This document shows positions 5,646 to 61,252 of a stretch of 64,000 nucleotides of DNA, piece after piece. The stretch comes from Muribaculaceae bacterium. Lineage in GTDB: Bacteria; Bacteroidota; Bacteroidia; Bacteroidales; Muribaculaceae. The position numbers and the translations under genes were made by a program. The stretch is from assembly GCA_017557625.1 (NCBI GenBank), contig JAFYYG010000042.1:114461-178460 (forward strand), in the 5' to 3' direction. Numbering within the stretch: position 1 is the first letter of the stretch; every line of letters begins with the position of its first letter. A model generated the notes under the pieces. The model saw only the letters and a list, made by a program, of their open reading frames with translations. It was not told the DNA's origin and did not search any database.

Positions 5646-6380
5646 ATGACTGAACAAAATGCAATTGCCAACTATCTGAAATACACTGGCAAGAAATCGT
5701 TCAACTTTACCACGGCACTCATCGACATGGACGGAGTGCTATTTGACTCAATGAAGAATCACACCCGCGCTTGGGTAAAACTGATGAAAAAGAACGGAAT
5801 CAAGTGCACACGCGATGAGTTCTACATGTATGAAGGTATGACAGGACGCGACATCATCAAGATGAAATTCAAGAATGGTGCCGGGAAGAATGTCACTGAC
5901 GATGAGGCACAAGCCCTCTACAAAGTAAAAACTCGCTATTTCACCGAACTCGGCGATGTGGAGACTGTGCCAGGAACGCTAGAAGTGCTTAAAGCCCTTA
6001 AGGAGGCTGGCATCAAATGCGTACTGGTAACTGGATCGGGAACTCAAGCCATGCTTGACCGCATCGACACTGAATATCCCGAAATCTTTGACGAGCAACG
6101 CATCACAGCTGCCGATGTGAAACGCGGCAAACCCAATCCTGAACCTTACCTCAAGGCGATGGCAAAGATAAACGCACAGCCCAACGAATGCCTCGTTCTT
6201 GAGAACGCGCCGCTGGGCGTTCAAGCAGGCCACACAGCTGGATGCTTCACGGTGGGAGTCACTACTGGCCCTATCCCTGAGAAAGACATCTACAAAGCTG
6301 GTGCCGACATGGTGTATAAAGATATGGAAACCATGCTCAATGCTTTGCCACAACTCATGGAAGCGTTTAAAAATGCATAA
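5646..6380 (+). CDS. HAD-superfamily phosphatase (beta-phosphoglucomutase-like)
   Basis: A 244-residue cytoplasmic HAD hydrolase. Motif I is DMDGVLFDS near residue 28, with a helical cap inserted after it. Motif II is VTGSGTQ near residue 126, motif III is the lysine in RGKPNPEPY, and motif IV sits in LVLENAPLG. The cap and motif I resemble beta-phosphoglucomutase and 2-deoxyglucose-6-phosphatase-like enzymes, which act on sugar phosphates. The second acidic residue of motif I (DMDGV) is present, so it should be catalytic. The substrate cannot be read. It is followed by a short-word repeat block and then aroB. Confidence 0.88.
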   Translation: MTEQNAIANYLKYTGKKSFNFTTALIDMDGVLFDSMKNHTRAWVKLMKKNGIKCTRDEFYMYEGMTGRDIIKMKFKNGAGKNVTDDEAQALYKVKTRYFTELGDVETVPGTLEVLKALKEAGIKCVLVTGSGTQAMLDRIDTEYPEIFDEQRITAADVKRGKPNPEPYLKAMAKINAQPNECLVLENAPLGVQAGHTAGCFTVGVTTGPIPEKDIYKAGADMVYKDMETMLNALPQLMEAFKNA

Positions 6381-6424
6381 TTCATAATGCACAATGCATA
6401 ATCTTTTAGTAATGCATTATGCGG
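6377..6424. repeat. short-word intergenic repeat (AATGCATAAT family)
   Basis: Imperfect copies of words such as AATGCATAAT, TTCATAATGCAC and GCATTATGCGGAAT run from the stop codon of the HAD gene. The same words recur at 21063-21096, 46607-46645 and 32574-32586. The block has self-complementary parts but no T tract. Confidence 0.65.
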
Positions 6425-6506
6425 AATATAGAATTGGGCTGCGCCACTTGTTTTTTTTTTAGACATAAGAACAAAAGATTATCTTTTTAATGCATATTCT
6501 TCTTTT

Positions 6507-7565
6507 ATGCACCGTAATAAGACAATGACCCTCCACATTACTAACGATGTAGATGCCACCCTCAACTCTATCATTGAGGGTGGCAATTACAATGTCGTGA
6601 TAGTGCTGGTTGACACCAACACCCGACGGTTGGTGCTGCCACTGCTGCCATGCCTAAGCAACGCTCACATCATAGAAATCACACCTGGAGACGATAACAA
6701 GAATCTCGTCACACTATCTCACGTCTGGAGTGAGATGGTACAATGTGGCGCTACACGACACTCGCTGCTTGTGAATCTGGGTGGTGGCATGGTGACCGAC
6801 TTGGGAGGCTTTGCGGCCGCTACGTTCAAACGCGGCATCGACTTTGTGAATGTTCCAACAACATTACTCGGAGCGATAGATGCCGCTGTGGGTGGCAAAA
6901 CAGGCATCAACTTCAATGGTCTGAAAAACGAGATTGGTGTCTTTGCTCCCGCCAAAGCGGTGATTGTTAGCACAATCTTCTTCCCTACCCTGCCCGAGAA
7001 GGAATTTAAATCAGGCTTTGCTGAGATGCTCAAGCACGCCATGCTGCACTCGCACGACAGTTTTGACCAGATGTTAAGTTTTAATTTTCAGAGTATTGAT
7101 TACGACCTTTTGCTCACTCTGATGAAAGAGTCACTGCTGGTTAAGCAAAACATCGTGGAGCAAGACCCCACAGAGCAGAACATGCGCAAAGCCCTCAACT
7201 TAGGGCACACTGTGGGACACGCATTCGAGAGCAAGGCTCTTGATGACGGCAAACCAGTGCCGCACGGCTATGCCGTGGCTTGGGGACTGGTTGTGGAGAG
7301 CGTGCTCTCACACATCATGCTGCAATTCCCAAGCGCTGATCTCTACACACTCGCGCGTTTTGTGAAAGAAAACTATGGCGTATTCCACATAACCTGCGAC
7401 CACTACGACCAGTTGCTCGACCTAATGCGCCACGACAAGAAAAGCCAAAACGGTGAGATAAACTGCACACTGCTTAAGGAATGTGGGAAACCAGTAATCA
7501 ACAACACAATAAAAGAGGACGACCTAAAAACCGCCCTCGATATCTACAGAGACCTAATCTGTTAA
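6507..7565 (+). CDS. aroB: 3-dehydroquinate synthase
   Basis: AroB converts DAHP to 3-dehydroquinate, the second step of the shikimate pathway, in the cytoplasm with NAD and a divalent metal. The 352 residues match the usual length. Diagnostic stretches are LGGGMVTDLGGFAAATFKRG near residue 91, VPTTLLGAIDAAVGGKTGIN near residue 117, the metal-ligand histidine region LNLGHTVGHAFE near residue 231, and PHGYAVAWG. Translation may start at 6507 or at the in-frame ATG at 6525; the family does not decide between them. It is a single gene between two repeat-rich intergenic stretches, convergent with the DUF4595 lipoprotein gene. Confidence 0.95.
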   Translation: MHRNKTMTLHITNDVDATLNSIIEGGNYNVVIVLVDTNTRRLVLPLLPCLSNAHIIEITPGDDNKNLVTLSHVWSEMVQCGATRHSLLVNLGGGMVTDLGGFAAATFKRGIDFVNVPTTLLGAIDAAVGGKTGINFNGLKNEIGVFAPAKAVIVSTIFFPTLPEKEFKSGFAEMLKHAMLHSHDSFDQMLSFNFQSIDYDLLLTLMKESLLVKQNIVEQDPTEQNMRKALNLGHTVGHAFESKALDDGKPVPHGYAVAWGLVVESVLSHIMLQFPSADLYTLARFVKENYGVFHITCDHYDQLLDLMRHDKKSQNGEINCTLLKECGKPVINNTIKEDDLKTALDIYRDLIC

Positions 7566-7582
7566 TTGTTATATTAAGTCAC

Positions 7583-7620
7583 AAGTGTTAAGCATACCAA
7601 ACGCATCACACTTAACACTT
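7583..7620. terminator. shared hairpin between convergent aroB and lipoprotein gene
   Basis: A perfect 10-base inverted repeat, AAGTGTTAAG (7583-7592) with CTTAACACTT (7611-7620), encloses 18 bases and reaches into the stop codon of the minus-strand gene. Its position suggests a two-way terminator. The arm uses the same ACACTTA word as the repeats at 20422 and 21106. Confidence 0.5.
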
Positions 7621-8467
7621 ACCTATACGTGATTCTCACCGTATATTTCGGTGTCTCGTTGGTTGTGTAGCTCTTTACATATCCGTCACTGTCAAGCTCG
7701 TAGGTGATATCGTAGCGCTTGAGTTGGAGAGGCTCATCAGAATCAGCCTCTACAGTCTGACTGTAGTCATAACCCTTTTTCATTACTGTGGGCAAATAAG
7801 CGCTTGTTGCACCAAAGAGACCTGCGTTGCGCATGATGGCGCACACATATTTGGTGAACGTGAACGACTCATTGCCTTCCACGTCAATGCAACCTTTGTT
7901 GATAGGCGCGCCAGTGCCATATTCATAAACCACACTGTCTTTCTTGTTCACTCCAGTACTCTCCCACTGCATGAGTTTGCCGTTGAGCCATGCCACCTTT
8001 GTCACGTCGGTAGATGATGGAGAAACTATCTGTGCCAATTCCAGCTCGTTGCTATAGCTATACTGCAACGCGGCGGCAGTGCGACTTGTTGACACGTTTT
8101 TGAGTTGGGTGATAGCGCCCTGAGCATTGACCTCAAACGAATAAGTCACGTCCTGGATGCTCTTGTCACAAATTATGGCACCATTGTCATAGTCGAAGTA
8201 GATAGTTTCCTCATTACTTCCGCCAGTGCCGTAATTGGTCACCACGTGAACGCTTTTTAAGTGGTCTCCATCGTAACTTGCAGTAGCAACAATCTTTGTG
8301 CCTTTAGCATCTTCCTTCTCAATCTTGCTGATAAACTTGTGACCAACAGGGAGTTGGGGATAAATCATATTGAACTCGCGGGTAAATGTGTTCTTGGGTT
8401 CATTATCACCGCAAGAAACCATCATAATTGCAAATAATGCTATTGCTAAATATTTCAAACTCTTCAT
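7619..8467 (-). CDS. DUF4595-type lipoprotein
   Basis: A 282-residue lipoprotein with a clear signal (lipobox MVSCG, Cys near residue 19). The body is a run of beta-strand units, alternating short charged turns with aromatic strands (for example YDGDHLKSV, IYFDYDNGA, YSYSNELELA), like the DUF4595 proteins of Bacteroidetes, which resemble shortened YD/RHS repeats. No catalytic motif is seen. Such proteins sit at the periplasmic or outer face of the outer membrane; their job is unknown. A -7 box TACCTTTG lies at 8504-8497 on the minus strand. Confidence 0.75.
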   Translation of the reverse strand: MKSLKYLAIALFAIMMVSCGDNEPKNTFTREFNMIYPQLPVGHKFISKIEKEDAKGTKIVATASYDGDHLKSVHVVTNYGTGGSNEETIYFDYDNGAIICDKSIQDVTYSFEVNAQGAITQLKNVSTSRTAAALQYSYSNELELAQIVSPSSTDVTKVAWLNGKLMQWESTGVNKKDSVVYEYGTGAPINKGCIDVEGNESFTFTKYVCAIMRNAGLFGATSAYLPTVMKKGYDYSQTVEADSDEPLQLKRYDITYELDSDGYVKSYTTNETPKYTVRITYR

Positions 8468-8577
8468 AATTTCTCGTGTTTTTATATTATCGACCGCAAA
8501 GGTAGATAAAAGTTTTCATTTGTCAGTTATCACTTGTCAGGTTTTTTTCGTTATTTTGCAACGTTTTTGAGAAAACG

Positions 8578-13261: not shown

Positions 13262-13322
13262 ATAGGTAATCTTGCAACTCAAAAAACTGATGACTCATAA
13301 CTAAGAACTCAAAACTAAGAAC
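13262..13322. repeat. short-word intergenic repeat (AACTGATGACT / AAGAACTCA family)
   Basis: About 60 bases of imperfect AACTCA, AACTGATGACTCATAACT and AAGAACT words run straight up to the ispG start codon. They leave no room for a separate ribosome-binding site or -7 box next to the ATG. Confidence 0.6.
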
Positions 13323-13323
13323 T

Positions 13324-15135
13324 ATGTTCAACTATCACCGCCGCAAGACTGTTTCAGTAAATATAGGCAACACACCTTTAGGCAGCGACTTCCCCATCAG
13401 GGTGCAGTCAATGACTAACACCTCAACCAACGACATCGATGCCAGCGTGGAGCAATGCCAGCGCATTGCCGACGCCGGGGCACACTACGTGAGGCTCACG
13501 ACGCAAGGAGTGCGAGAGGCAAAAAACTTAGGAATAATTCGCCAAAAGTTGCGTGAGAGTGGTTGTAAAGTACCTCTTGTAGCCGACATCCACTTCAATC
13601 CGCGTGCGGCACTCGAAGCGGCTCAGGTCACCGACAAGGTGCGCATCAACCCAGGCAACTTCGTTGACCCGGCACGGCAGTTTAAGAGTTTAACTTATAC
13701 CGATGAAGAGTACCAAGCCGAACTCCAGCGCATCCACGACTCATTGGTGCCGTTCATCGACCTATGCCGCAAGCACGGCACTGCAGTGCGGCTTGGCGTG
13801 AACCACGGTTCGCTGAGCGACCGCATCATGAGCCGCTATGGCAACACCGCACCTGGCATGGTGGAGAGCGTGATGGAATATTTGCGCGTCTTCGTGGAGC
13901 AGAAGTTCATGGATGTGGTGATTTCGATGAAAGCCTCCAACGTGGTAGTCATGGTCGAGGCGGTGCGACGCTTAGTAGCAGCGATGGATGCCGAAGACAT
14001 GCATTTCCCGCTTCACTTAGGCGTTACCGAGGCGGGATTTGGCGAGGACGGACGCATCAAGAGCGCAGTGGGTATTGGTGCACTCTTGAGTCAAGGACTT
14101 GGCGACACCATCCGCGTGTCGTTGAGTGAAGACCCAGAACTCGAAGTGCCTGTAGCTAACAAACTCGTTGATTACATAACAGGCCGCGAAGGCCATCCAC
14201 ACATCGAGGGACATTACAGCAAGGGCTATAACCCATTGATGCCTGAGCGACGCTTAGGCAACAGCATCAACGGATTAGTGGGCGGCAAAACACCTATCGT
14301 CATTGCCTCGTGCCATCCTGATGATGTTACTGGCAATCGACGTCCCGACTTATTCTTCAGTCCAACTGGTGTCCTCAACGACACCGACCGTTTCATTGTT
14401 CCCGCAGCCATTTATCACGGCAAGGACAACACCTCTCCCCTATTCTCCCTAGACAACTGGAACGATAGCGTTGATGCACCTCTCAAGTGGCTAGAGGTGC
14501 CTGCAAGCACACCTGTAGAAAAACTGCTTTTCCTCAAGAACTGCGACAATGTGGCGATAATCATCACACCCGACAACATAAATGTGAGTGGATGCCAACA
14601 GGCTCTCATTCATTCCCTTATCGATGAGGGCATCAACTGCCCCGTCATTCTCCATAATGGCTACCTCGACACCGATACTGAGTGGCTGCAGGTGAAAGCC
14701 GGGGCCGACCTCGGAGCTGTGATACTCAACGGCTTGGGCGACGGAGTGTGGCTTGAAGACTCTGATTATGAGAATCAGAACGAAGTCGTGGGCTACGCCT
14801 TCGCCATACTGCAAGCGGCACGATTGCGCACCACTAAAACGGAGTTCATATCGTGTCCAAGTTGCGGACGCACAATGTTTGACCTGCAAACCACCGTACA
14901 CCGTGTGCAGGAAGCCACTTCTCATCTCACCCACCTCAAGATTGGCGTGATGGGCTGCGTGGTAAATGGCCCAGGCGAGATGGCCGATGCCGACTATGGA
15001 TATGTGGGTGCTGCCGTGGGACGAATAAGCCTCTACAAGGGAAAAGAGTGTATCGAGAAAAACATCCCCGAAGCCGATGCCATCCCTCGTCTCATCGCCC
15101 TTATCAAAGAAAACGGCGACTGGGTGGAACCTTAA
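13324..15135 (+). CDS. ispG: 4-hydroxy-3-methylbut-2-enyl diphosphate synthase
   Basis: IspG (GcpE) makes HMBPP in the MEP pathway of isoprenoid synthesis with a 4Fe-4S cluster and a reductant. This 603-residue form is much longer than the roughly 370 residues of Proteobacteria: the TIM barrel (residues 1-280, with VQSMTNTSTND near residue 29) is separated from the cluster-binding C-terminal domain by an insert of about 200 residues (roughly 285-495), as is usual in Bacteroidetes, chlamydiae and plants. Cluster cysteines lie in SCPSCGRT near residue 515 and GVMGCVVNGPGEM near residue 545. It supplies precursors used by MenA and by lipid-carrier synthesis. Confidence 0.95.
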   Translation: MFNYHRRKTVSVNIGNTPLGSDFPIRVQSMTNTSTNDIDASVEQCQRIADAGAHYVRLTTQGVREAKNLGIIRQKLRESGCKVPLVADIHFNPRAALEAAQVTDKVRINPGNFVDPARQFKSLTYTDEEYQAELQRIHDSLVPFIDLCRKHGTAVRLGVNHGSLSDRIMSRYGNTAPGMVESVMEYLRVFVEQKFMDVVISMKASNVVVMVEAVRRLVAAMDAEDMHFPLHLGVTEAGFGEDGRIKSAVGIGALLSQGLGDTIRVSLSEDPELEVPVANKLVDYITGREGHPHIEGHYSKGYNPLMPERRLGNSINGLVGGKTPIVIASCHPDDVTGNRRPDLFFSPTGVLNDTDRFIVPAAIYHGKDNTSPLFSLDNWNDSVDAPLKWLEVPASTPVEKLLFLKNCDNVAIIITPDNINVSGCQQALIHSLIDEGINCPVILHNGYLDTDTEWLQVKAGADLGAVILNGLGDGVWLEDSDYENQNEVVGYAFAILQAARLRTTKTEFISCPSCGRTMFDLQTTVHRVQEATSHLTHLKIGVMGCVVNGPGEMADADYGYVGAAVGRISLYKGKECIEKNIPEADAIPRLIALIKENGDWVEP

Positions 15136-15939: not shown

Positions 15940-17553
15940 ATGAAACGACTTCTACTTATTTTAATGACAGTTTTGGCTGTGCAGGCTATGCAGGCACAGG
16001 ACAGGTGGAGTTGGAACCCCAACTATCCACCCGACAACGAGAATGTTCAACTCACGCAGACCAACCTCCCCATCGTGTGGATGGAGGTGGACGGTGCTAC
16101 AATTGACCGGGAAGAGCGCATCACAGCACGCATGAAGATTATTCACAACGGTGATGGCAACCTCAACTATGCCGACACAGTGGCGCATCCTGGACAGAAG
16201 ATTGACTATCAGGGATATGTCGCCCTGAAGTATCGCGGCAACTCATCATTCACCGCCAGCGACAAGAAACCTTACTCGTTCCGTCCGCTAAACGCTCCTC
16301 TCGAGGAAGGCGGCACTAAGCAGAAGGTAAAAATCCTGGGTATGGGCAAGGACAACAACTGGGCTTTGCTCGCACCCTACAGCGACAAGAGCATGATGCG
16401 CGACCTGCTCATTTTTGAGCTTGAGCGACCCTGGATGGAATACACGCCTACAGGAAAGTATTGCGAGCTCTACCTCGACGGCATCTACTATGGCATTTAC
16501 ATCCTGAGCGAATTGCCCACCAAAGGCAAGCAGCGCCTGAATCTTGACGACCCAGGCGACGAGGGTGACGAGCTGACTGGCGGCTACCTGCTTGAGGTGG
16601 ACCGCACAGATGAGCCCACCTACACCTCGAAGTACCACCCCATGACAAAAAACGGCCAGTGGATTAACAACCGCTACATCAATTATCAGTTCAAAGAGCC
16701 TGAATATGAGGATTTGACCGATGCCCAATACAACTACATCACTGGACAGGTAGACTTGATGGAGGACGCCCTCGCTTCGTCAAATTACACCGACCCCGAA
16801 ACCGGCTACCGCCAATATATGGACGTGATGTCGTTTGTCGATTTCCAGATTGCACAGGAAATCTCGCACAACGTGGACGGATATCGACTCAGCTCTAAGA
16901 TATTTAAACGGCGCGACAGCACAGACCCAAGATTCAAGATGGTGCTTTGGGACTTTAACATCGCCTTTGGCAACAGCGACTATTACAACGGCTGGTACAC
17001 CAACAACTGGGTTTATGAGGGCAATAACACCCTAAATGCGGCTGGAGACACACAGCTCATTCCATTCTGGTGGTACAAGCTCAATAAAGACCCCTATTAC
17101 CAAGACCTGCTCAAGAGCCGCTGGGCACAGTGCCGACGCGCCAATATGCGTGAAGACCGCATCATGGCGACCATCGACTCAATGGCGACTCAGCTTACTG
17201 AGCAAGGTGCCATGGCACGCAACAGCCAGGCTTGGCCACGCTGGGGACAGTATGTATGGCCTAACTATTACATCGCTCAGAACTATGACGATGAGGTAAA
17301 CCACCTCAAGGAGTGGATACATGACCGTCTGACATGGATGGACCAGCAGCTCGGCTTCGACCCAACCGCTGTGGTATATGGTGACGTTGACGGTGACGGA
17401 TATGTAACTACTGCTGACATCACAGCCATTTACAACTACTTGCTCGAAGGCAACGAGACCTACATTGACACCAGCGACGTCGATGGCGACGGATTTATCA
17501 CCACAACTGATATTACCGTAATTTACAATATACTGCTAGGAAACAAAAAATAG
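15940..17553 (+). CDS. secreted CotH-kinase-family protein with C-terminal dockerin-like repeats
   Basis: A 537-residue exported protein with a signal peptide (MKRLLLILMTVLAVQAMQAQ). Residues about 30-440 form a CotH domain: KYRGNSSF near residue 95, DNNWALLAPYSDKSMMRD near residue 140, and WDFNIAFGNSDYYNGW near residue 340. Spore CotH proteins are atypical kinases that phosphorylate secreted proteins; the role of the Bacteroidetes versions is unknown. The last 60 residues are two calcium-loop dockerin-like repeats (DVDGDGYVTTADITAIYNYL and DVDGDGFITTTDITVIYNIL) that end at the C-terminus. No cohesin is visible. Export through the T9SS encoded nearby is likely but inferred. A strong terminator follows. 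Confidence 0.87.
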   Translation: MKRLLLILMTVLAVQAMQAQDRWSWNPNYPPDNENVQLTQTNLPIVWMEVDGATIDREERITARMKIIHNGDGNLNYADTVAHPGQKIDYQGYVALKYRGNSSFTASDKKPYSFRPLNAPLEEGGTKQKVKILGMGKDNNWALLAPYSDKSMMRDLLIFELERPWMEYTPTGKYCELYLDGIYYGIYILSELPTKGKQRLNLDDPGDEGDELTGGYLLEVDRTDEPTYTSKYHPMTKNGQWINNRYINYQFKEPEYEDLTDAQYNYITGQVDLMEDALASSNYTDPETGYRQYMDVMSFVDFQIAQEISHNVDGYRLSSKIFKRRDSTDPRFKMVLWDFNIAFGNSDYYNGWYTNNWVYEGNNTLNAAGDTQLIPFWWYKLNKDPYYQDLLKSRWAQCRRANMREDRIMATIDSMATQLTEQGAMARNSQAWPRWGQYVWPNYYIAQNYDDEVNHLKEWIHDRLTWMDQQLGFDPTAVVYGDVDGDGYVTTADITAIYNYLLEGNETYIDTSDVDGDGFITTTDITVIYNILLGNKK

Positions 17554-17583
17554 TTCATAGTTTATAGTTCACAGTTCATAGTA
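17550..17583. repeat. short-word repeat (TAGTTTATAG family)
   Basis: Imperfect TAGTTCA/TAGTTTA words start at the CotH stop codon. The same word family occurs at 26318-26400 between gldM and gldN. Confidence 0.6.
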
Positions 17584-17800: not shown

Positions 17801-17847
17801 AATTGGACGAATTAGACGAATTGGTCAAATTGGACGAATTGGACGGA
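17801..17847. repeat. short-word repeat (AATTGGACG)
   Basis: About five imperfect copies of AATTGGACG/AATTAGACG/AATTGGTCA lie upstream of the PorE-like gene. Confidence 0.7.
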
Positions 17848-20421: not shown

Positions 20422-20454
20422 CTAACAGTTAACACTTTATACTTAACACTTAGA
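20422..20454. repeat. short-word repeat (AACACTTA family)
   Basis: Imperfect AGTTAACACTT and ATACTTAACACTTAG words end 6 bases before the ribE start codon. The same family recurs at 21106-21142 and forms the hairpin at 7583-7620. Confidence 0.6.
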
Positions 20455-20459: not shown

Positions 20460-21065
20460 ATGTTTTCAGGCATAGTAGAAGAGGCTGCCCGCGTGGTGGC
20501 ACTCGAGAAAGAAGAAGGTAATCTCCACATCACGCTCAAGTGCAGCTTTGTGGATGAGTTGAAAATAGATCAGAGCGTATCGCACAACGGTGTGTGCCTC
20601 ACAGTGGTGAAACTCCCAGGCAACGGCACCTACACTGTCACCGCCATTCAGGAGACGCTCGACCGCAGCAACCTCGGGCTGCTCAAAGTAGGCGATGAGG
20701 TGAACGTGGAGCGCAGTATGCTCATGAACGGCCGCCTTGACGGACACATCGTGCAGGGTCATGTGGACCAAACCGCTACCTGTACCAGTGTGCGCGAGGC
20801 CAACGGCAGCTGGTATTACACCTTCCACTACGACGTTGACCCAGCGATGGCACGCAAAGGCTATGTCACCGTGGAGAAGGGCAGCATCACCGTCAACGGC
20901 ACCAGCCTTACTGTATGCAACAGCGAGCGCGACAGCTTCGAGGTCGCCATCATCCCCTACACCCACGAACTCACCAACTTCCACAACATCGTTGAAGGCA
21001 CCGTGGTGAACCTTGAGTTTGACATCATAGGGAAGTACCTCGCACGACTCATGGAGTTTAATTAA
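20460..21065 (+). CDS. ribE: riboflavin synthase, alpha chain
   Basis: Riboflavin synthase turns two molecules of 6,7-dimethyl-8-ribityllumazine into riboflavin plus a pyrimidinedione. The 201-residue protein has the expected two internally related lumazine-binding domains: MFSGIVEE at the very N-terminus, SVSHNGVCLTVV near residue 38, and the second-domain equivalent GSITVNGTSLTVC near residue 141; DGHIVQGHVDQT lies between. No FMN riboswitch was seen upstream; the 55 bases before the gene are mostly a short-word repeat. No other riboflavin gene is in the window. Confidence 0.95.
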   Translation: MFSGIVEEAARVVALEKEEGNLHITLKCSFVDELKIDQSVSHNGVCLTVVKLPGNGTYTVTAIQETLDRSNLGLLKVGDEVNVERSMLMNGRLDGHIVQGHVDQTATCTSVREANGSWYYTFHYDVDPAMARKGYVTVEKGSITVNGTSLTVCNSERDSFEVAIIPYTHELTNFHNIVEGTVVNLEFDIIGKYLARLMEFN

Positions 21066-21142
21066 TGCACAATGCATAATTCACAATGCATAATGGCGAA
21101 GCCACTAACTTTACACTTAACACTTAAAACTTTACACTTACA
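21063..21142. repeat. two adjoining short-word repeats between ribE and the phosphodiesterase gene
   Basis: The first part (21063-21096) repeats AATGCATAATTCAC words; the second (21106-21142) repeats ACTTTACACTTAACACTTAA words up to the GTG start. The first is the reverse complement of the family at 46607-46645. Confidence 0.7.
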
Positions 21143-21670
21143 GTGAAGACCATTGGTATCATAAGCGACACTCACTGCTACTGGGATGACCGGTATGCAG
21201 AGCATTTTGCCGACTGCGACGAGATATGGCATGCTGGCGACATCGGCAACGAAGCGCTCATCGACATGATTGCGGCAATAGGGCCGCAAGTGCGTGCCGT
21301 CTATGGCAATGCCGATGGTCAAGACCTTCGACGTCGCTTCAAGGAGACCGAAATCTTCACCACCGAGGGAGTGAAAGTGATGATGACACACATAGGCGGC
21401 TATCCCGGACGCTATGCCCCTGGCATCAAGTCGAGGCTCGACCTCGTGCAACCTAAAATCTTCGTGTGCGGACACAGCCACATCCTAAAAGTCATCCCCG
21501 ACCGCAGCCTCGGCGTGCTCACTATCAACCCTGGCGCAGCAGGCCGTCAAGGCTGGCAAAAAGTGCGCACTCTCATCAAACTGACACTCGACAACGAAGC
21601 CATCACTGGATGCCAAATAATAGAACTTGCCGACGACCGCGATAACCCACAAGGTCGCGTTGTGGAATAA
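21143..21670 (+). CDS. YfcE-type metallophosphoesterase
   Basis: A 175-residue cytoplasmic phosphodiesterase of the YfcE/MJ0936 group. Metal-binding residues are in ISDTHCYW near residue 7, HAGDIGN near residue 31, VYGNAD near residue 53, MTHIGGYP near residue 78 and CGHSHILK near residue 112, followed by NPGAAGRQG typical of the family. The start is GTG at 21143, because the conserved first strand (KTIGIISDTH) begins right after it and no ATG lies nearby. The physiological substrate of this family is unsettled. Confidence 0.9.
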   Translation: MKTIGIISDTHCYWDDRYAEHFADCDEIWHAGDIGNEALIDMIAAIGPQVRAVYGNADGQDLRRRFKETEIFTTEGVKVMMTHIGGYPGRYAPGIKSRLDLVQPKIFVCGHSHILKVIPDRSLGVLTINPGAAGRQGWQKVRTLIKLTLDNEAITGCQIIELADDRDNPQGRVVE

Positions 21671-23518: not shown

Positions 23519-23600
23519 GTAGAGGACAAGAGAACAAGAGAACAAGAGAACAAGAAAACAAGAAAACAAGAAAACGAGAAAACGAGAGAACAAGAGGAGT
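23519..23600. repeat. short-word repeat (GAACAAGA array)
   Basis: About ten copies of an 8-9-base word (AGAACAAG, then AGAAAACAAG and AGAAAACGAG) lie between the convergent menA and BspA-type genes. The array is the clearest of the intergenic word repeats. The frames across it are low-complexity and not genes. Confidence 0.85.
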
Positions 23601-26304: not shown

Positions 26305-26317
26305 TGTGATATGAATT

Positions 26318-26408
26318 TATAGTTCTTAGTTTTTAGTTTATAGTTCTAAGTTTATAGTTTTTGAATTCTTGGTTTGAGTCTCTAAACTCTAAACACTAAA
26401 CTCTAAAC
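26318..26408. repeat. short-word repeats between gldM and gldN
   Basis: Imperfect TAGTTTATAGTTC words at 26318-26358 are followed by CTCTAAACTCTAAACACTAAA words at 26380-26408. They fill almost the whole spacer inside the operon. Confidence 0.75.
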
Positions 26409-26427
26409 ATCAAGCGAAGCTTGAACA

Positions 26428-34827: not shown

Positions 34828-34872
34828 ATCCTAAGTGTATCCTAATTGCAATAGCTTCACAAAAAATTTCTG

Positions 34873-34880
34873 CAAAGTTA
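34873..34880 (-). promoter_or_regulatory. -7 box of the glycosyltransferase gene
   Basis: TAACTTTG on the minus strand lies 46 bases above the start. A CAGTTAACAGGTATCACTCGTTAG repeat (34894-34921) occupies the -33 position. Confidence 0.4.
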
Positions 34881-35054
34881 CATAATAGTTTTCAGTTAAC
34901 AGGTATCACTCGTTAGTTTTTTATTTTTCGCGACAAAACTATATAAAACTTGCGCATGGTCAAGTCCTTGCCAAAATTTATCCTGGCAGGGAAACTTGCC
35001 ACTTTTGTTTTTTGCCATTGCGAATTCTTTGCAATTAATACCAAAGAAACCAAA

Positions 35055-40718: not shown

Positions 40719-41807
40719 TTAACTTCCTAAAAGAATGTCATAAACAGCAGTAACATCGCTTGATGTGATGTTTCCATCGCCGTTTTGGTCCGCATTTACA
40801 ACACCAGTATAGTCATCACTTAGCAAAATGTTGTAAAGTAATGTCACATCGGCTGCTGTCACTTCGCCGTCACCGTCCACGTCGCCAGGCACAGGATCAC
40901 CTTGTTCTCCATTTGTGAATTTTATCTTTACCGTGCGAGTCACGCCGCCAATAGCTGCTGTGAGAGTGGCAAGCAGATGGCCATCGCTCTGGATGTCAAG
41001 GGCATCGAACTGCACTTGGCAAATGCCGTTTTTAAACGAGAACTGTTTGGTTAGCGAAGTGTTGCTGCCAAAAGAAGAACATAGACCACCCATGCACCAA
41101 TTTATCCCATCACAGATAAAGGTATTCTCATTAATTGTCATTATAGCAGTGCCTTGAGTAGAATTGCCTGAGAGCAATTGCAAAATAAGTCCATTATTAG
41201 GATTGGAGCTAGGATTGGTCTCACACGCTATTTCTCCAAAATCGTTCTCCTCAGCAGGAATTGTCACGGTAGCGCCATCGGCAAGAGACTTGCCTTGGTA
41301 ACGGAACTCAAAATTAGCCCCATCACCCTGCTCGCCATTGACAAATTTAATATTCACCGTGCGGGTAACACCGTCGATAGTGGCAGAGAGCACAGCAAGC
41401 AGATAGCCATCGCTCTGAATGTCTGTGGCATCAAATTGTGCTAAACAGATGCCATTATTAAACGAAAATATTTTGGTGAGCGAAGTGTTGTTACCAAAAG
41501 AAGTACATGTACCACCCATACACCAAGTTATTGTTTCGCAAATAAAGGAATTCCCAATAATAGTCATTGTTGCAGTACCTTGAGTGTAATTGCCCGACAG
41601 TACTTGCAAAATAAGTCCATTATTGGGATTGGAGCTAGGATTGGTCTCACACGCTATTTCTCCAAAATCGTTCTCCTCGGCGGCTATAGTCACCGTTGCG
41701 CCATCAGCGAGCGACTGACCCTGGTAGCGGAACTCAAAATTCTGCGCCACCACCGCTGGAATCGACAAAAGCAACATCACTGTTATTGATAGTAAATGTT
41801 TTATCAT
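40719..41807 (-). CDS. secreted protein with two 142-residue cysteine-rich repeats and dockerin end
   Basis: I do not recognise the main domain. The 362-residue protein has a signal peptide (1-22), then two copies of a 142-residue unit (23-164 and 165-304) that each begin NFEFRYQGxSLADGATVTI and each hold five cysteines, including the WCMGG(T/L)C stretch. Two dockerin-like repeats (VDGDGEVTAADVTLLYNIL, QNGDGNITSSDVTAVYDIL) end at the C-terminus. The DNA of the two units is also closely similar (offset 426 bases), so the duplication is fairly recent. It lies 26 bases above the Omp28/dockerin gene, with which it probably shares a transcript. It is probably exported by the T9SS and disulfide-stabilised (inference). 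Confidence 0.8.
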   Translation of the reverse strand: MIKHLLSITVMLLLSIPAVVAQNFEFRYQGQSLADGATVTIAAEENDFGEIACETNPSSNPNNGLILQVLSGNYTQGTATMTIIGNSFICETITWCMGGTCTSFGNNTSLTKIFSFNNGICLAQFDATDIQSDGYLLAVLSATIDGVTRTVNIKFVNGEQGDGANFEFRYQGKSLADGATVTIPAEENDFGEIACETNPSSNPNNGLILQLLSGNSTQGTAIMTINENTFICDGINWCMGGLCSSFGSNTSLTKQFSFKNGICQVQFDALDIQSDGHLLATLTAAIGGVTRTVKIKFTNGEQGDPVPGDVDGDGEVTAADVTLLYNILLSDDYTGVVNADQNGDGNITSSDVTAVYDILLGS

Positions 41808-46559: not shown

Positions 46560-46645
46560 GTTTAGAGTGAAGAGTGAAGAGTGGAGAGTGGAGAGTAAAG
46601 AAGGCACATTATGCATTGTGAATTGTGCATTGTGAATTGTGCATT
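46560..46645. repeat. two adjoining short-word repeats between prfB and the acyl-CoA ligase
   Basis: GAGTGAAGAGTGGAGAG words (46560-46600) are followed by CATTGTGAATTGTGCATT words (46607-46645). The second part is the reverse complement of the 21063 family. Confidence 0.75.
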
Positions 46646-46650
46646 ATGCA

Positions 46651-48513
46651 TTAAATAAACTCTACTTCTAGTTTTTCTTCTTTCTTGCCCTTGGGGCGGT
46701 AGTCAACGGCATACATGGCGTCAATCAACTTGGCATAGCGCTTATTGACTACAGCGCGCTTGATTTTCATCGTATTGGTGAGTTCGCCGTTCTCCATCGA
46801 GAAAGGTCGTGGCAACAGCACAAAGCGCTTTATCTGCTCATAGCTGGCGAGATTCTTCTGATACTCATTTATGAGTTTCTCGAGCATATCGTGCACTTTG
46901 GGGTTGTTGACCAGTTCCTCGTTGTTCTTAAACTTGATTTTGTGCTTTGCGGCCCATATTCCCAACTCGTCGAAGTCGGGGACGATGAGCGCACTCACAT
47001 ATTTGCGACCGTCGCCAATCACCGCCACCTGTGCCATATATTTGTCTTGTGCAAGCAGGGTCTCAAGCATCTGCGGGGCGATGTACTTGCCGTTGCTGGT
47101 CTTGTAGAGGTCCTTAAGCCGCTCGGTCATTACCAGGTGGCCATTCTCGGTGATTTCGCCGCAGTCGCCAGTGTGGAACCACCCGTCTTCGTCTATCGCC
47201 TGGGCGGTCTCCTCAGGTTTGTTGTAATAGCCACGCATCACAGTGGGACCTTTCACCAATATCTCGTTCTGGTCGCCAATCTTCACCTTCACACCTGGAA
47301 TCGGCTCGCCTATGGTTCCAAGCTCCCAGCCCTGATTTGGATAGAAACATACCGAAGCGTTGGTCTCGCTCAGGCCGTAGCCTATCACTATGTTAATGCC
47401 CACGGCGTGAAGCAGCGCGGTGATATTATCGCTGAGCATGGCGCCGGCGGTAGGGAAGAGTTTGCCGTTCTCCACACCAATCGCCTTGCGCAGACGCGAA
47501 TACACCTTCTTCTCAAAGTATTGATACTGCTTCTCAACGAGATATGGCACCTTCTTGCCGTTGCGCACATACTTGATGTTACGAGTCTTACCAATGCGTA
47601 TTGCGGTCTTAAACAGCGTCTTCACCACTGGCTTGGCACCATTCACATTGTCCATGATAGCGGTATATACCTTCTCCCAGAATCGTGGCACGCTGCACAT
47701 GCAGTTGGGGCGAATCTCCTTCACTGCACGCTGTATCTCATGAGGATTGTAGTTGATAGCGACCACAAGACCATGTATAAGGCAGAACATCGTCCAGCCA
47801 AGCTCGAAGATATGGCTCAATGGCAGGAAGCTGAGTGACACGTCATTGTCGTCAACGTAAGTCAAACGCATGCCGTGAGCAAGCATCGCCGCGTTGAAGT
47901 TGCTGTGGGTGAGCATCACGCCCTTGGGCTGGCCCGTGGTTCCCGAAGTGTAAATGAGATACATCAAGTCGTCGGGGCGACCCTCGTCCATGCGTTTTTC
48001 AAGTGCGCTGCGCACCAACTCGCCGGCCTGCCCGCCATCGCTCAAAAAGCGACGCCATGTAGTGATGCGTTTATCCTTTTTGTCGATTTCGACAGAGGTA
48101 TTCATCACCACAACGAGATTTAGGCATGGGCATTCGTCAAAGAGCTGAATGGCAATGTCGTACTGCTCCTGCCCTCCCACCATGATTACTGTGGCCCCCG
48201 AGTCGTTGATGATATAGGCCGCCTCGTCCTTGCTGCTGGTGGCATAGATGGGCACAGGAATGGCGCGGTTATAGAACGACGCAAAGTGCGTTATCAATAT
48301 CTCAGGGCAATTCTGCGAGAACACCGCCACCTTGCCCTGCGGCTCCAAGCCAGCTTGCAGCAAAGCGTTGGCGCAACGCTCTATGTCCTGCTTGAAACTC
48401 TTCCACGACATTGATGTCCACTGGTCGGTAAGGTAGTCACGGTATCGCAACGCCTCGCGGTTGCCATATTTCTTTGCCTGGTTGATGATCAGGCTAACAA
48501 ATTCGTTTTGCAT
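46651..48513 (-). CDS. long-chain acyl-CoA synthetase (AMP-forming)
   Basis: The enzyme activates long-chain fatty acids to acyl-CoA. The 620-residue protein starts at 48513 (MQNEFVSLIINQAKKYGNRE), as a promoter lies just above and the longer frame has no family match. Motifs: YTSGTTGQPKGVMLTHSNF near residue 197, LSHIFELGWTM near residue 238, YGLSETNASVCF near residue 382, TGDCGEITENGHLVM near residue 450 and LYKTSNGKYIAPQ near residue 475. The FadD/ACSL-type architecture is complete, unlike the AMP-binding enzyme at the left edge of the window, which belongs to another branch. Confidence 0.93.
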   Translation of the reverse strand: MQNEFVSLIINQAKKYGNREALRYRDYLTDQWTSMSWKSFKQDIERCANALLQAGLEPQGKVAVFSQNCPEILITHFASFYNRAIPVPIYATSSKDEAAYIINDSGATVIMVGGQEQYDIAIQLFDECPCLNLVVVMNTSVEIDKKDKRITTWRRFLSDGGQAGELVRSALEKRMDEGRPDDLMYLIYTSGTTGQPKGVMLTHSNFNAAMLAHGMRLTYVDDNDVSLSFLPLSHIFELGWTMFCLIHGLVVAINYNPHEIQRAVKEIRPNCMCSVPRFWEKVYTAIMDNVNGAKPVVKTLFKTAIRIGKTRNIKYVRNGKKVPYLVEKQYQYFEKKVYSRLRKAIGVENGKLFPTAGAMLSDNITALLHAVGINIVIGYGLSETNASVCFYPNQGWELGTIGEPIPGVKVKIGDQNEILVKGPTVMRGYYNKPEETAQAIDEDGWFHTGDCGEITENGHLVMTERLKDLYKTSNGKYIAPQMLETLLAQDKYMAQVAVIGDGRKYVSALIVPDFDELGIWAAKHKIKFKNNEELVNNPKVHDMLEKLINEYQKNLASYEQIKRFVLLPRPFSMENGELTNTMKIKRAVVNKRYAKLIDAMYAVDYRPKGKKEEKLEVEFI

Positions 48514-48534
48514 AGTTGTTTTATTTTTATCGTG

Positions 48535-48566
48535 CAAATGTAGTGAAAATCTTGCGACTTTACAAC
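48535..48566 (-). promoter_or_regulatory. promoter of the acyl-CoA synthetase gene
   Basis: On the minus strand GTTG (48566-48563) and TACATTTG (48542-48535) are 20 bases apart, 21 bases above the ATG at 48513. Confidence 0.55.
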
Positions 48567-48645
48567 CTTGCCAGCACATTTTTGACACATAATATAATTT
48601 CCCGAGGCTTTAATACGTTATAAGATAAAAACATAAGCGCGAAGA

Positions 48646-48772
48646 GCGTCAATTGTAAGCAATAAAAATAATTGTTAATAATTGTTTGTAATTGTATGAC
48701 AAATTTATGAAGACGCGCGTCAATTGTTTGCAATAAAATTAATTGTTTGTAATGGTATGATATATTTATGAC
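48646..48772 (+). repeat. tandem duplication of the msrA leader, including its start codon
   Basis: The segment from 48646 (GCGTCAATTGT..AATAAAA..ATTGT..TTTATGA) is repeated from 48717 with about ten bases fewer. The ATG in the first copy (48707) opens only nine codons before TAA; the ATG in the second copy (48768) starts msrA. Confidence 0.75.
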
Positions 48773-53875: not shown

Positions 53876-54038
53876 GAAATCAATCGCTCTTCATTCCGAA
53901 CCATCCCTAAACGATAAACCATAAACGAAAAACAAAACTGTTGAAAAGTTTTTCTTAATTTAAAGATGTGTAACAGCACGCTATTTCGAGGATATTTTGT
54001 ATATTTGCAAATTATTTTAGAGCATTTATACATAAGTT

Positions 54039-58084: not shown

Positions 58085-58116
58085 GTAATATCGAAATAAA
58101 AAAAAACTCCAATATT

Positions 58117-59227: not shown

Positions 59228-59232
59228 AGTGT

Positions 59233-60348: not shown

Positions 60349-60378
60349 TGCCACCCTAAACATGCACAATTTTGCGAT

Positions 60379-60702
60379 ATGAAGCGATATATTTCTAACT
60401 ATACGATACTTGGCAATGGCGAGGAGGTTATCAACCACATAACAACGGTGGGCGATGACGGTGCGCTAATATCGATTGAGCCTTTTGACCGCGAACTCGG
60501 AAACACCGTCTATGTACCTCAGCCTTTGTGCGTTGCTGCCTCTGGCGAAATTGAACTTGTAAAAAAGACCTTCAAGGAATGTGCCTCGCGCCAGCAGTTA
60601 AAACAACGACTTGCTGCGCTCAACACTTCACGTCCACAACAAGGAAACACCGTGCTTGTGCTGCGGCTTGACTTCGCCCACAACATCATCAACATGATTT
60701 AG
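60379..60702 (+). CDS. conserved hypothetical protein
   Basis: A 107-residue protein, no signal peptide or membrane helix. It begins MKRYISNYTILGNGEEVINH and has two conserved-looking stretches, SIEPFDRELGNTVYVPQPL and VLVLRLDFAHNIINMI. I do not recognise a fold. It lies 30 bases after the DUF4296 gene and 5 bases before the DUF4298 gene, so the three are likely one transcript. Confidence 0.7.
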   Translation: MKRYISNYTILGNGEEVINHITTVGDDGALISIEPFDRELGNTVYVPQPLCVAASGEIELVKKTFKECASRQQLKQRLAALNTSRPQQGNTVLVLRLDFAHNIINMI

Positions 60703-60707
60703 CTATT

Positions 60708-61013
60708 ATGGACCAAATTGAGAGAATAAAATCAATGGAGGAGCACCTCAACAAGGCTTCTCAAGCAGTAAAGGCGATGAGCGACGCACTCGACCTCTAC
60801 ACCGAAGCAATGGAATCGATAGAAACCATCGACGACTATCTCGTAAGCGATGAATGGCAGCAGGACTTCAACGACAGCGAGGCAGGACGGCTGCCTAAAG
60901 ACCTAAAATGCGGTGTCCTTAGCGAAGACGGCATCTGGAACGTCATCGACACAAACCGCGAACTCCAAGCACAAATGCTGGAAATCATCGCCACCCATCT
61001 CCGAAACGAATAA
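60708..61013 (+). CDS. DUF4298 protein
   Basis: A 101-residue, acidic, mostly helical cytoplasmic protein that matches DUF4298 from start to end: RIKSMEEHLNKASQAV, then IETIDDYLVSDEWQQDFNDSEAGRLPKDLKCGVLSEDGIW. The family is small and its role is unknown. It is the last gene of the ileS-DUF4298 run; a hairpin with a dispersed-repeat arm follows. Confidence 0.85.
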   Translation: MDQIERIKSMEEHLNKASQAVKAMSDALDLYTEAMESIETIDDYLVSDEWQQDFNDSEAGRLPKDLKCGVLSEDGIWNVIDTNRELQAQMLEIIATHLRNE

Positions 61014-61061
61014 ACAGCACCTCTCTCAAGCTACAATTAAAGACAAAGTCTTTGCCCTCTT

Positions 61062-61094
61062 TTTAACCCAAATCTGTCATTAGATTCGGGTTAA
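61062..61094 (+). terminator. hairpin carrying dispersed repeat copy 2
   Basis: TTAACCCAAATCT (61063-61075) pairs with AGATTCGGGTTAA (61082-61094), one mismatch, six-base loop. The left arm and loop are copy 2 of the 23-base repeat seen at 1874-1896. There is only a weak T run after it. Confidence 0.6.
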
Positions 61095-61176
61095 TTATGT
61101 CTTTTTACATCATTCTAATTAGACTTCTTTGACAAATCTAGTTAATGGATAAGAAACGATCTGAGGCAGCATTATA

Positions 61177-61252
61177 TATAATAATGAAGTCATTGAAGTC
61201 ATTGAAATCACTTACACATGAAAATACTGACAACTGATAACTAATAACTGAA
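61177..61252. repeat. two adjoining short-word repeats before the YitT-like gene
   Basis: TCATTGAAG words (61183-61210) are followed by CTGACAACTGATAACTAATAACTG words (61227-61250), which reach to within a few bases of the -7 box at 61263-61270. Confidence 0.65.

Follow-up and report, generated by a model that had tools for sequence, protein, structure and literature searches.

The repeat blocks found between genes in the window (the whole 64,000-nucleotide stretch of DNA that was analysed, from a rumen Muribaculaceae metagenome-assembled genome) are two things built on the same 7-base unit, namely arrays of heptads in the spacers and a class of promoters in which five direct heptads precede a -7 box. 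The spacer arrays are of an already known kind; the five-heptad promoter element is newly noticed. We consider it probable that these represent two layers, promoter heptads and spacer heptads, sharing one unit length.

Repeat blocks in the window

A preliminary description had listed sixteen blocks of tandem 6-14-base words, and both their coordinates and their repetition hold on rechecking. When the best period between 4 and 15 was scored at each site, with shuffles of the same segment as the null, the unit proved to be mainly 7 bases, with minorities of 8, 9 and 10. Period 7 or 14 scored highest, or roughly level with the highest, at 12 of the 16 sites (6377, 7583, 8518, 13262, 17550, 20422, 21063, 26318, 34894, 46560, 53905 and 61177), the other four having period 9 (17801), period 8 (23519 and, weakly, 33598) and period 10 within a tandem duplication of about 60 bp (48646). 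At 14 sites the score was reached by the shuffles no more than 0.08 times on average over periods 4-15. Site 33598 was matched 0.2 times by its own shuffles and site 34894 3.3 times; the latter is therefore not periodic above chance, and it was picked up as a promoter element by the weight matrix (41 bits, leave-one-out). The sites do not form the single family originally proposed, in which promoter elements, spacer arrays, arrays of period 8 or 9 and a tandem duplication had been pooled. The remark that blocks lie next to a -7 box or at an ATG was correct, and this feature separates the promoters (class 1) from the spacer arrays (class 2) in the following list.

6372-6402, +: class 2 spacer array of AATGCAT words that overlaps the stop codon of gene 5646-6380
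7583-7620, no strand: short inverted pair AAGTGTTAAG ... CTTAACACTT with weak period 7, between convergent genes
8496-8546, -: class 1 promoter, -7 box TACCTTTGC, before gene 8467-7619
13286-13323, +: class 2 spacer array, C-type AACTNNN, running to the ATG of the ispG-type gene 13324-15135
17550-17582, +: G-type class 2 spacer array of TAGTTCA words, at the stop codon that ends gene 15964-17553
17801-17845, +: period-9 array AATTGGACG, not heptad
20423-20452, +: class 2 spacer array, C-type TTAACAC words; gene 20460 starts 7 bp on
21063-21095, +: class 2 composite spacer, left arm, AATGCAT/AATGCAC
21094-21104, +: small hairpin TGGC-GAA-GCCA separating the two arms
21108-21140, +: right arm of the class 2 composite spacer, with C-type ACACTTA words; the GTG start at 21143 follows
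23521-23596, +: period-8 array AGAGAACA, not heptad, between convergent genes
26316-26375, +: left arm of a class 2 composite spacer, G-type TAGTTTA
26380-26408, +: right arm of that class 2 composite spacer, C-type CTCTAAA
33605-33638, +: weak period-8/16 repeat in a 48-bp spacer
34872-34922, -: class 1 promoter with degenerate upstream heptads, -7 box TAACTTTGC, before glycosyltransferase gene 34827-33643
46564-46601, +: class 2 spacer array, G-type AGAGTGA
46607-46652, +: class 2 spacer array of CATTGTG words reaching the stop codon of gene 46651-48588
48646-48766, +: tandem duplication of about 60 bp with a period-10 stretch, not heptad, before gene 48768
53908-53937, +: AAACGAT/AAACCAT array resembling class 2, within a longer spacer
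61185-61210, +: period-9 array TGAAGTCAT, directly upstream of the class 1 promoter 61221-61271
61221-61271, +: class 1 five-heptad promoter, -7 box TACCTTTGC, before YitT-family gene 61310-62260

A five-heptad promoter class

The class 1 element, a predicted promoter, consists of five direct heptads (consensus AAAAAACTGACAACTGATAACTGATAACTGAAAACTTTTTAC) placed in a fixed register directly upstream of a -7 box TAnnTTTGC, the last AACT ending 6 nt before the box. Copies in the window lie at 8518, 34894 and 61226. The promoter at 61221-61271 contains an exact match to the search pattern (61246-61271), scores 54.8 bits (leave-one-out) and has a counterpart of the same kind at the orthologue in a sister species (G001), while that at 34872-34922 also matches exactly (34872-34897; 41.2 bits, leave-one-out). 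The third, at 8496-8546, matches with one mismatch (8496-8521), scores 43.5 bits with a matrix outside whose training set it falls, and has similar sequence at the same place in both relatives found (L009 and L031). By eye, the product of gene 8467-7619 has a lipoprotein-like N-terminus.

Among the gene-facing -7 boxes of the genome from which the window comes (hereafter the own genome), AACTN3AACT occurs within 45 nt upstream in 12 of 157 and downstream in none. The strict pattern has 29 copies in this whole genome, 29 in G001 and 25 in G082, and the reversed control pattern has none in all 101 genomes. The search pattern took in the -7 box by design and left out three further heptads and an A-tract, which nevertheless score above 5 bits in 26 of the 29 own copies (leave-one-out) and 24 of 27 from G001, against 2% of shuffles. 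Of 28 own copies, 18, 15 and 17 have ACT at these three additional heptad positions but only 4, 1 and 1 at the next three positions upstream, giving the element a sharp upstream border. By period alone, the class is at shuffle level in genomes G009 (1 of 117, against 0.6) and G002 (0 of 24).

The promoter of the Bacteroidota sigma factor sigma-ABfr is given, in the available parts of two accounts, as TTTG at -33 and TAnnTTTG at -7 (PMC7366714, PMC9723704). Class 1 promoters have the same -7 box, a form of which (TAnnTTTG) is also seen at thrS across species, but in them the five heptads replace the -33 TTTG element, since TTTG at a distance of 23-24 nt is present in none of 8 heptad promoters as against 33 of 138 others.

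Comparison of the 29 own copies with 27 of the 29 copies in G001 yielded eleven genes whose orthologues both carry the element by the strict pattern; in these pairs the element is 82% identical, as compared with 47% for the adjacent upstream 25 nt. Aminoacyl-tRNA synthetase genes account for 6 of the 29 own copies (P between 4e-8 and 2e-7, depending on the gene numbers assumed), these being valS, gltX, tyrS, metG, thrS and pheS, of which the valS piece is a fragment just below the family cut-offs. The element also lies upstream of argS and glnS in G001 and of trpS and lysS in G033, so that ten kinds of synthetase gene are found downstream of it across one genus. At thrS the upstream heptads read AACTGAT in the own genome, AAAGCCT in G006 and AATTCTC/CATTCAC in G026 and G084. 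Close thrS orthologues (96-97% identical) in G064, G062, G010, G011 and G029 lack the five heptads, and the element is therefore readily acquired, lost or exchanged for another. Among 294 genomes from outside the genus, 21 contain 1-3 matches. The element is common to many housekeeping genes, those charging transfer RNAs in particular.

Contiguous 7-bp repeats at promoters are also the sites of Omega2, a ribbon-helix-helix regulator of plasmid pSM19035 that, according to the part of the account available, forms ordered helical structures on heptad operators (PMC4498918). There, 7-10 heptads are found on a Firmicutes plasmid, whereas here five are found at housekeeping promoters and protein binding is putative; RHH_1 (PF01402) has no match in the own genome (88% complete) or in G001, and matches in 2 of 21 genomes. 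A regulator binding the tandem heptads would, we infer, recruit or gate the housekeeping RNA polymerase, so that housekeeping genes would be set together. If this is true, a five-heptad promoter before ten kinds of synthetase gene would amount to a coordinated expression system for translation, and the element offers a direct route to the putative binding protein. To our knowledge, and in the literature searched, no such system has been described in these bacteria. Because the thrS element is written in different words in different species, we also raise, tentatively and as something we think rather doubtful, the idea that the promoter machinery reads the 7-bp period and the five units, not a fixed word, and that the process making spacer heptads feeds a lineage-specific promoter class coordinating the aminoacyl-tRNA synthetases and other housekeeping genes.

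Heptad arrays in the spacers

In 810 kb of the own genome (516 spacers) we counted 102 intergenic period-7 arrays, compared with 0.7 in shuffles; periods 4, 5, 6, 8, 9 and 10 gave 0, 0, 1, 12, 12 and 7 arrays, and 7 period-7 arrays lie within coding DNA. The proximity to start and stop codons noted in the preliminary description is borne out, the median distance to the nearest gene edge being 7 bp, whereas arrays placed at random within their own spacers would give 19. The refuting condition set in that description, words at chance frequency elsewhere, does not hold, since counting words genome-wide places them far above chance (230 overlapping matches to AACTN3AACTN3AACTN3AACT, 1 to the reversed pattern). 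The arrays are found mostly between co-directional genes (in 50/223, 25/94 and 8/35 of the ++ spacers in three genomes) and are depleted between divergent ones (-+; 10/65, 3/70 and 0/16).

The strand of the arrays, formerly described as either, obeys a polarity rule. In three genomes taken together, C outnumbers G on the sense strand in 82 of 93 arrays before start codons and G outnumbers C in 74 of 103 after stop codons, the stop-side bias being the weaker (74:29; 34:20 in the own genome alone). Whichever way the gene runs, the G strand leads outward from the nearer gene (81:28, 55:9 and 20:3 in the three genomes). The classical G4 motif occurs in none of 212 arrays, and arrays without any GG keep the polarity (50:20, 31:7 and 18:3). 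This orientation relative to start and stop codons, together with the fixed register of class 1 to the -7 box, favours the earlier suggestion of a cause linked to transcript ends.

The same polarity was described by Rehm et al. (2015) for the G-rich heptamers that lie between genes in Xanthomonas and Nostoc (PMC4692102), and the spacer arrays are therefore members of this known kind, which has long been a puzzle. A preference for four units is a feature of the repeats described there. As far as the available part of that account goes, both have a 7-nt unit, are intergenic, lie mostly less than 50 bp from genes, vary among close relatives, lead the G strand away from the gene at both ends and are rare between divergent genes. 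In contrast, the words here are mostly A/T-rich (AACTNNN, ACACTTA), with many per genome, and the accessible text on Xanthomonas and Nostoc reports neither a function for the length and polarity nor a promoter class. Direct repeats of TAACTGA are known from Beggiatoaceae, Cyanobacteria and some Bacteroidetes (MacGregor 2015; PMC4679880, in part), where 147 of 170 sets are forward, towards start codons. The own promoter consensus contains TAACTGA repeats, and the start-side arrays, counting all words, have a corresponding C-type orientation. There, however, a single word prevails, in most cases ending close to the start codon, whereas here the TAACTGA-like promoter form lies upstream of a -7 box and the words are many; TAACTGA doublets occupy 22 positions among them in the own genome and none in the G009 and G002 samples. 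The view that the repeats have no known name was thus half right, since heptamers with this polarity and start-facing TAACTGA heptamers are on record (PMC4692102, PMC4679880), and no description of the five-heptad promoter class was found in the literature searched.

The arrays are hypervariable, and at the same locus in different species the words of an array are replaced. For example, at 13286-13323 four of six relatives (L009, L031, L010 and L015) have other heptad words and two (L020 and L012) no clear array; at 46564-46601, among ten relatives, G010 has a short version with the same words and the others have other words or no clear array. The duplication at 48646-48766 was not seen by eye in the corresponding spacers of ten relatives.

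Origin of the arrays

Word families are shared between unlinked loci, as first noted: in the own genome 515 locus pairs have a common 11-mer, against 55 when array columns are permuted. Independent slippage of random local seeds fails to explain these shared words, as had been anticipated, and slippage by itself gives no shared words. Word order across loci is close to the word-permuted null at most lengths. We propose that arrays grow and shrink in untranslated spacers, drawing on a shared stock of words; slippage by 7 nt and exchange between arrays would generate them, and selection on the transcript or the neighbouring gene would purge the wrong orientation near gene ends.

An alternative, which we regard as unlikely, sees the arrays as the tails of a REP- or MITE-like hairpin element, small and either mobile or dispersed, with a core hairpin or cap flanked by heptads. 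Spacers with several arrays (n = 42 in three genomes) have G-type then C-type in 29 cases and C then G in none. A conserved cap (AGTANNATTACTATCGCC) is present in 14 of the 101 genus genomes, looser matches to it follow heptads in 9 of 10 intergenic copies in G009 and 3 of 4 in G002, and the spacer 26305-26427 measures 123 bp as against 39-57 bp in the seven relatives compared (of eight found), which lack the left arm 26316-26375. Perfect hairpins of at least 8 pairs lie within 36 nt after 8 of 77 own G-type arrays as compared with 1.5% of random intergenic windows, although six of the eight are three hairpins counted from both arms; they are equally frequent on the other side of own arrays (4/40) and are not enriched in G009 (1/47) or G002 (0/17). 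Moreover, the G-then-C pair is found in 20 of 98 own, 18 of 52 G009 and 8 of 20 G002 array spacers, and arms of the same spacer show no excess of complementarity over swapped arms. Replacement can affect a single arm and spare both its partner and the hairpin, as in L009, where GATTAGT words take the place of the left arm 21063-21095 and both the hairpin 21094-21104 and the right arm 21108-21140 are kept. Nor do Y1 transposase counts, compared by eye, track the arrays as they would for REP elements mobilised by RAYT, Y1_Tnp being found in 12 of 13 genomes, including G003, which has no AACT-array match.

Less probable still is that polymerase slippage accounts for everything, both classes being heptanucleotide simple-sequence repeats of the ordinary sort and the promoter copies chance neighbours of -7 boxes. 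Heptanucleotides are the commonest class in most repeat-rich genomes surveyed (PMC4679880, in the part available, citing Mrazek 2007), a given locus varies in length and words with near-random word order, and array and promoter counts correlate over all 101 genomes (0.67). The promoter copies, however, keep to a single register and to five units, break off sharply at the upstream edge and show a cross-species footprint, the vocabulary is shared between loci at about ten times the null, and the counts dissociate: 7 genomes have at least 10 array matches with no promoter match, and 8 have at least 4 promoters with no more than 20 array matches.

It is very unlikely that the C-type arrays are Rho loading sites halting untranslated transcription into a gene from either side. 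RNA transcribed outward from mid-spacer does tend to be richer in C than in G immediately ahead of a gene, but Rho prefers YC dinucleotides, which the common words AACTGAT, AACACTT and AACTTAC lack, and start-side arrays sit on the sense strand of translated genes. We give slightly less credence again to a telomerase-like or other templated enzyme adding G-type heptads to 3' DNA ends at spacer breaks, so that gene blocks would end in outward telomere-like repeats. G-type strands do tend outward from both gene ends, as in the available account of Xanthomonas and Nostoc (PMC4692102), whichever way the gene runs, and in G002 and G009 there are arrays that lead into an invariant cap sequence resembling a possible template end; yet caps are on a minority of arrays, the arrays on the promoter side number five units, the bias after stop codons is moderate and neither enzyme nor template was found. 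The templated or terminal-transferase-like process proposed at the outset is called for by no finding, no enzyme being linked to the arrays and word order being close to the permuted null.

Placement by selection for G-quadruplex or similar structure, as proposed for GGGAATC repeats, is the least probable explanation. The polarity and the depletion between divergent genes are the same as for GGGAATC and GGGGA(C/T)T repeats (PMC4692102), but the classical motif is absent and GG-free arrays are still polar. The quadruplex idea there concerns that paper's own words, not heptamers at large; the same polarity in Bacteroidales, in words without the classical motif, takes away the main structural proposal for these arrays, and a broader cause has to be sought. 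In G009 and G002, spacers that carry arrays form more stable folds than the rest, with no such excess in the own genome, and the arrays may therefore have a role in RNA structure.

Period-7 arrays between genes

The genome that carries the window (at G000:C29:114461-178460, where G000 is this genome) is a 3.05-Mb MAG in 76 contigs, and the T9SS proteins PorE, GldK and GldM encoded in the window are consistent with Bacteroidota. Relatives of this PorE are mostly from rumen MAGs labelled Muribaculaceae, Prevotellaceae or Bacteroidales, and some of them (~70% identity) are named Candidatus Sodaliphilus. Genes were called with our own hexamer-score caller. An NCBIfam search with three window genes gave no match at 1e-20, and the sole match to Rfam was a tRNA at 63874.

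The repeat blocks listed in the preliminary description, at least sixteen intergenic sites, were borne out by Tandem Repeats Finder and lag statistics. Their words had been put at 6-14 bases; 12 of the 16 sites have a 7-base unit, and one of these (34894) is not above chance on its own. Intergenic autocorrelation in a first 410-kb sample including the window is raised at lags 7, 14, 21 and 28 (z 18.5, 11.0, 9.3 and 6.9); lags 2, 3 and 9 are raised too. Across 810 kb of the own genome (516 spacers, 82.8 kb) we observed 102 period-7 arrays, against 0.7 in dinucleotide shuffles, while periods 4, 5, 6, 8, 9 and 10 gave 0, 0, 1, 12, 12 and 7 arrays and the coding DNA of the same 810 kb contained 7 of period 7. 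Congeners are similar, with 64 period-7 arrays in G009 (0.0 shuffled) and 27 in G002 (0.1 shuffled).

The recurrence of word families far apart, also part of that description, extends genome-wide: in the own genome, overlapping matches number 230 for the pattern AACTN3AACTN3AACTN3AACT and 1 for its reversed form. Counted in the same way across the genus (101 genomes, the own among them), this pattern has 0 to 443 matches per genome and occurs at least once in 83. Most of these genomes have 0 matches to the reversed control, which reaches 43 (G028; for example 40 in G096 and 35 in G030), probably owing to arrays in other words. Among genomes free of AACT-array matches, 20-33 kb samples of G012, G023, G040 and G058 contained no period-7 array, and those of G003 and G107 one each; samples of this size from G080 and G096 held three and five arrays written in other words. 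Bacteroidaceae-like loci, counted over 79 of 80 PorE-relative loci (L064 left out), yielded 46 period-7 and 21 period-8 arrays, against 0.2 shuffled in each case.

Polarity, vocabulary and turnover of the spacer arrays

Arrays were termed G-type where G exceeds C on the + strand and C-type where C exceeds G; those with equal G and C, or equidistant from both genes, were omitted from polarity counts. Arrays near the left gene are mostly G-type and those near the right gene mostly C-type, irrespective of gene direction (p 4e-7, 4e-9 and 5e-4 in three genomes), and in spacers with several arrays the order is G-then-C in 29 of 42 and C-then-G in none. When the three genomes are pooled and arrays assigned to the nearer gene end, 82 of 93 arrays before start codons are C-type on the sense strand (p 1e-14) and 74 of 103 after stop codons are G-type (p 1e-5), the latter figure being 34 of 54 in the own genome alone. 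Spacer halves without arrays show little skew (-0.06 to 0.03). The polarity is also present in Bacteroidaceae-like loci at period 7 (32/49, p 0.04) and period 8 (17/21, p 0.007), and is not significant in a small Muribaculaceae set (19/29, p 0.14; period 8, 3/8). Period-8 arrays are frequent in the Bacteroidaceae-like genomes (loci L054-L088), with the same polarity as period 7. Arrays are found in 18-27% of spacers between co-directional genes, 6-18% of those between convergent genes and 0-15% of those between divergent genes, at a median distance to the nearest gene edge of 7, 5 and 4 bp in the three genomes, against 19, 15 and 13 bp for random placement.

Word sharing links 515 locus pairs in the own genome, about ten times the 55 found after column permutation per array, and despite this common vocabulary the order of words within arrays is approximately random. 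Vocabularies overlap between genomes: own-own pairs share 11-mers in 8.0% of cases, near own-G009 (6.2%) and below own-G002 (9.4%). Species-specific dialects hold only for G002, the one genome whose arrays clearly resemble each other more than those of other genomes (an 11-mer is common to 54% of its array pairs). Copying of arrays as whole blocks is not supported: up to 24 nt, sharing equals the word-permuted null. In the own genome long sharing slightly exceeds this null at 26-28 nt (8 against 3.7, 6 against 1.5), and in G009 sharing at 26 nt (29 against 20) reaches the maximum of the null.

Orthologous spacers differ in their arrays. For example, among the relatives listed, at most seven per spacer, the heptads before an ispG-type gene differ between the window and the loci L009, L031, L010 and L015, and at site 21063 L009 keeps the right arm and hairpin with a different left arm (arms being the two arrays of one spacer). 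At site 46560, with a near-identical flank, the window's words recur in short form in G010, and in the other nine relatives there are either different words or no clear array. A tandem duplication of ~60 bp directly before gene 48768 (window 48646-48766) was not seen by eye in ten relatives. Unit, place, polarity, vocabulary and turnover are established from the sequence; the arrays themselves may be made by slippage and exchange, and their orientation would be set by selection.

Other origins or functions of the arrays fared less well. A long RNA stem between the arms of one spacer is not supported, own pairs being no better than swapped pairs: in the own genome they are worse (-0.31 against -0.51 kcal per nt swapped), in G009 they stand at -0.64 against -0.60 and in G002 they are equal. 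The quadruplex reading fails, since none of 212 arrays has a classical motif and the polarity persists in arrays without GG. An origin of the arms as target-site duplications is contradicted by their inverted, not direct, arrangement, and a RAYT/Y1 transposase as the source of the arrays is not supported.

A conserved cap (adjoining sequence) or hairpin flanks some arrays. In the own genome, hairpins lie just as often on the opposite side of arrays, and G009 and G002 show no enrichment. A cap motif, AGTANNATTACTATCGCC, lies next to G-type arrays in the G009 sample (e.g. L180:19630). G009 has it in 14 exact copies, and 14 of the 101 genomes contain matches.

A proposed heptad promoter element

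A further class, termed class 1 (the spacer arrays being class 2), consists of five direct heptads immediately upstream of a -7 box, TAnnTTTGC; the sigma-ABfr consensus is given in PMC7366714, and its -7 box also in PMC9723704. Of the 157 -7 boxes in the own genome that face a gene, 12 are preceded by AACTN3AACT at a distance of up to 45 nt, nearly all in one register, and none has it downstream. With a matrix built from ten of these, 15 own promoters scored more than 20 bits, including five that had not gone into the matrix (shuffle maximum 2.1). Of the three window promoters, two had contributed to this first matrix and were rescored leave-one-out.

Putative class 1 promoters of the window, found by pattern and matrix
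8496-8546, minus strand, class 1 promoter
34872-34922, minus strand, class 1 promoter
61221-61271, plus strand, class 1 promoter

The strict pattern AACTN3AACTNTTN3TAN2TTTGC has 29 copies in the own genome, 29 in the sister species G001 and 25 in G082. Across the genus it is present in 67 of 101 genomes, counting the own, and the reversed control is 0 in all 101. Only 21 of 294 other Bacteroidales have matches, 1-3 each, so the class is essentially confined to the genus. In the consensus of 28 of 29 own and 27 of 29 G001 copies, an A-tract, five heptads and the box stand out, and the sequence immediately upstream carries little information. The three upstream heptads, which lie outside the search pattern, score in 26 of 29 own copies (leave-one-out) and 24 of 27 in G001, against 2% of shuffles. 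A -33 TTTG at 23-24 nt is found in 33 of 138 ordinary boxes and 0 of 8 heptad promoters.

Genes downstream of class 1 copies (for G008, G033 and G036, 20 of 23 promoters were read, 19 with a readable gene)
Own genome: valS (fragment, just below cut-offs), gltX, tyrS, metG, thrS, pheS, release factor 1, RuvB, RNase PH-type 3' exonuclease, pyruvate:ferredoxin oxidoreductase, pantoate ligase, MlaE, YitT, YbeY, GH31 and others; RecR
G001, additional: argS, Obg, glnS, YbaK-type deacylase
G008: Der; tyrS (by similarity)
G033: trpS, lysS, TsaB
G036: HolA; metG (by similarity)

Aminoacyl-tRNA synthetases account for 6 of the 29 own genes, an unlikely number for a genome taken to have 2590 genes, 20-25 of them for synthetases (P 4e-8 to 2e-7). 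Eleven genes are common to the own genome and G001, and identity in these pairs is 82% over the 42-nt element, 47% over the adjoining 25 nt upstream and 70% over the 20 nt downstream; elements of non-orthologous genes are 73% identical. Register, footprint and gene set are likewise plain from the sequence, and the element would be an active, protein-bound promoter. The pSM19035 protein Omega2 binds promoters at runs of 7-10 contiguous heptads (PMC4498918); a family search found no RHH_1 protein in the own genome.

The word itself changes. In 28 of 30 thrS loci compared by eye (two lack the 5' end), the -7 box and downstream sequence are kept in most and the upstream module varies: the five heptads read AACTGAT in the own genome, AACTAAA-type in G067, AAAGCCT in G006 and AATTCTC/CATTCAC in G026 and G084, while in G097, G103, G033 and G032 a dispersed repeat with CTCGACTTGCAC lies directly upstream of the box. 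Some thrS promoters have neither, and those of the close relatives G064, G062, G010, G011 and G029 lack the five heptads. Period-7 DNA of any word precedes 10 of 145 own -7 boxes (shuffles 1.2); for other congeners the figure is 5 of 144 (0.3). Three word families are represented, and between word families the register relative to the box differs by up to ~2 nt (by eye). G009 and G002 gave 1 of 117 (0.6) and 0 of 24 (0.1). These word families and the changing thrS words suggest, on few cases, that period and place may count more than word at the promoter.

A dispersed repeat ending in a -7 box was observed at L095:3096, L097:16562, L161:3769 and window 52022, and related sequence forms the four-species thrS promoter just described; its word AAAATTAGTGCA occurs in 7 own regions, making it a candidate promoter-carrying repeat.

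Relation of the two classes and other repeats

Across the 101 genomes, array and promoter counts are correlated (Spearman 0.67), which is mostly due to genomes that lack both classes; among the 71 genomes with at least 5 array matches rho is 0.29 (p 0.016). In seven genomes at least 10 array matches are found without any promoter match, and in eight at least 4 promoters accompany at most 20 array matches. It is best to regard the two as separate layers that share a unit.

Among open-licence papers, which leave out most subscription journals, no account of the promoter class was found. According to Rehm et al. (PMC4692102), heptamers of Xanthomonas and Nostoc are outward-polar, near genes, scarce between divergent genes and variable, and our arrays resemble them in all four respects. 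They connect the heptamers to quadruplexes, whereas array words of the own genome, G009 and G002 lack the classical motif. MacGregor describes repeats of TAACTGA that are oriented towards start codons in Beggiatoaceae and other organisms (PMC4679880).

Further dispersed intergenic families (L107:6115, L100:9851, L093:2395) include GGTGTGTCAAAA in 11 regions and AATCGGTCATTA in 7. A dispersed hairpin, GTTGCGTTGACAACGCAAC, occurs at L157:15155, L156:4592 and L175:1541, some copies being followed by 9-base AACAAACGG-like repeats. Within the window, gene 40719-41807 contains a 426-bp repeat in 1.8 copies (82% matches) at 40969-41741.
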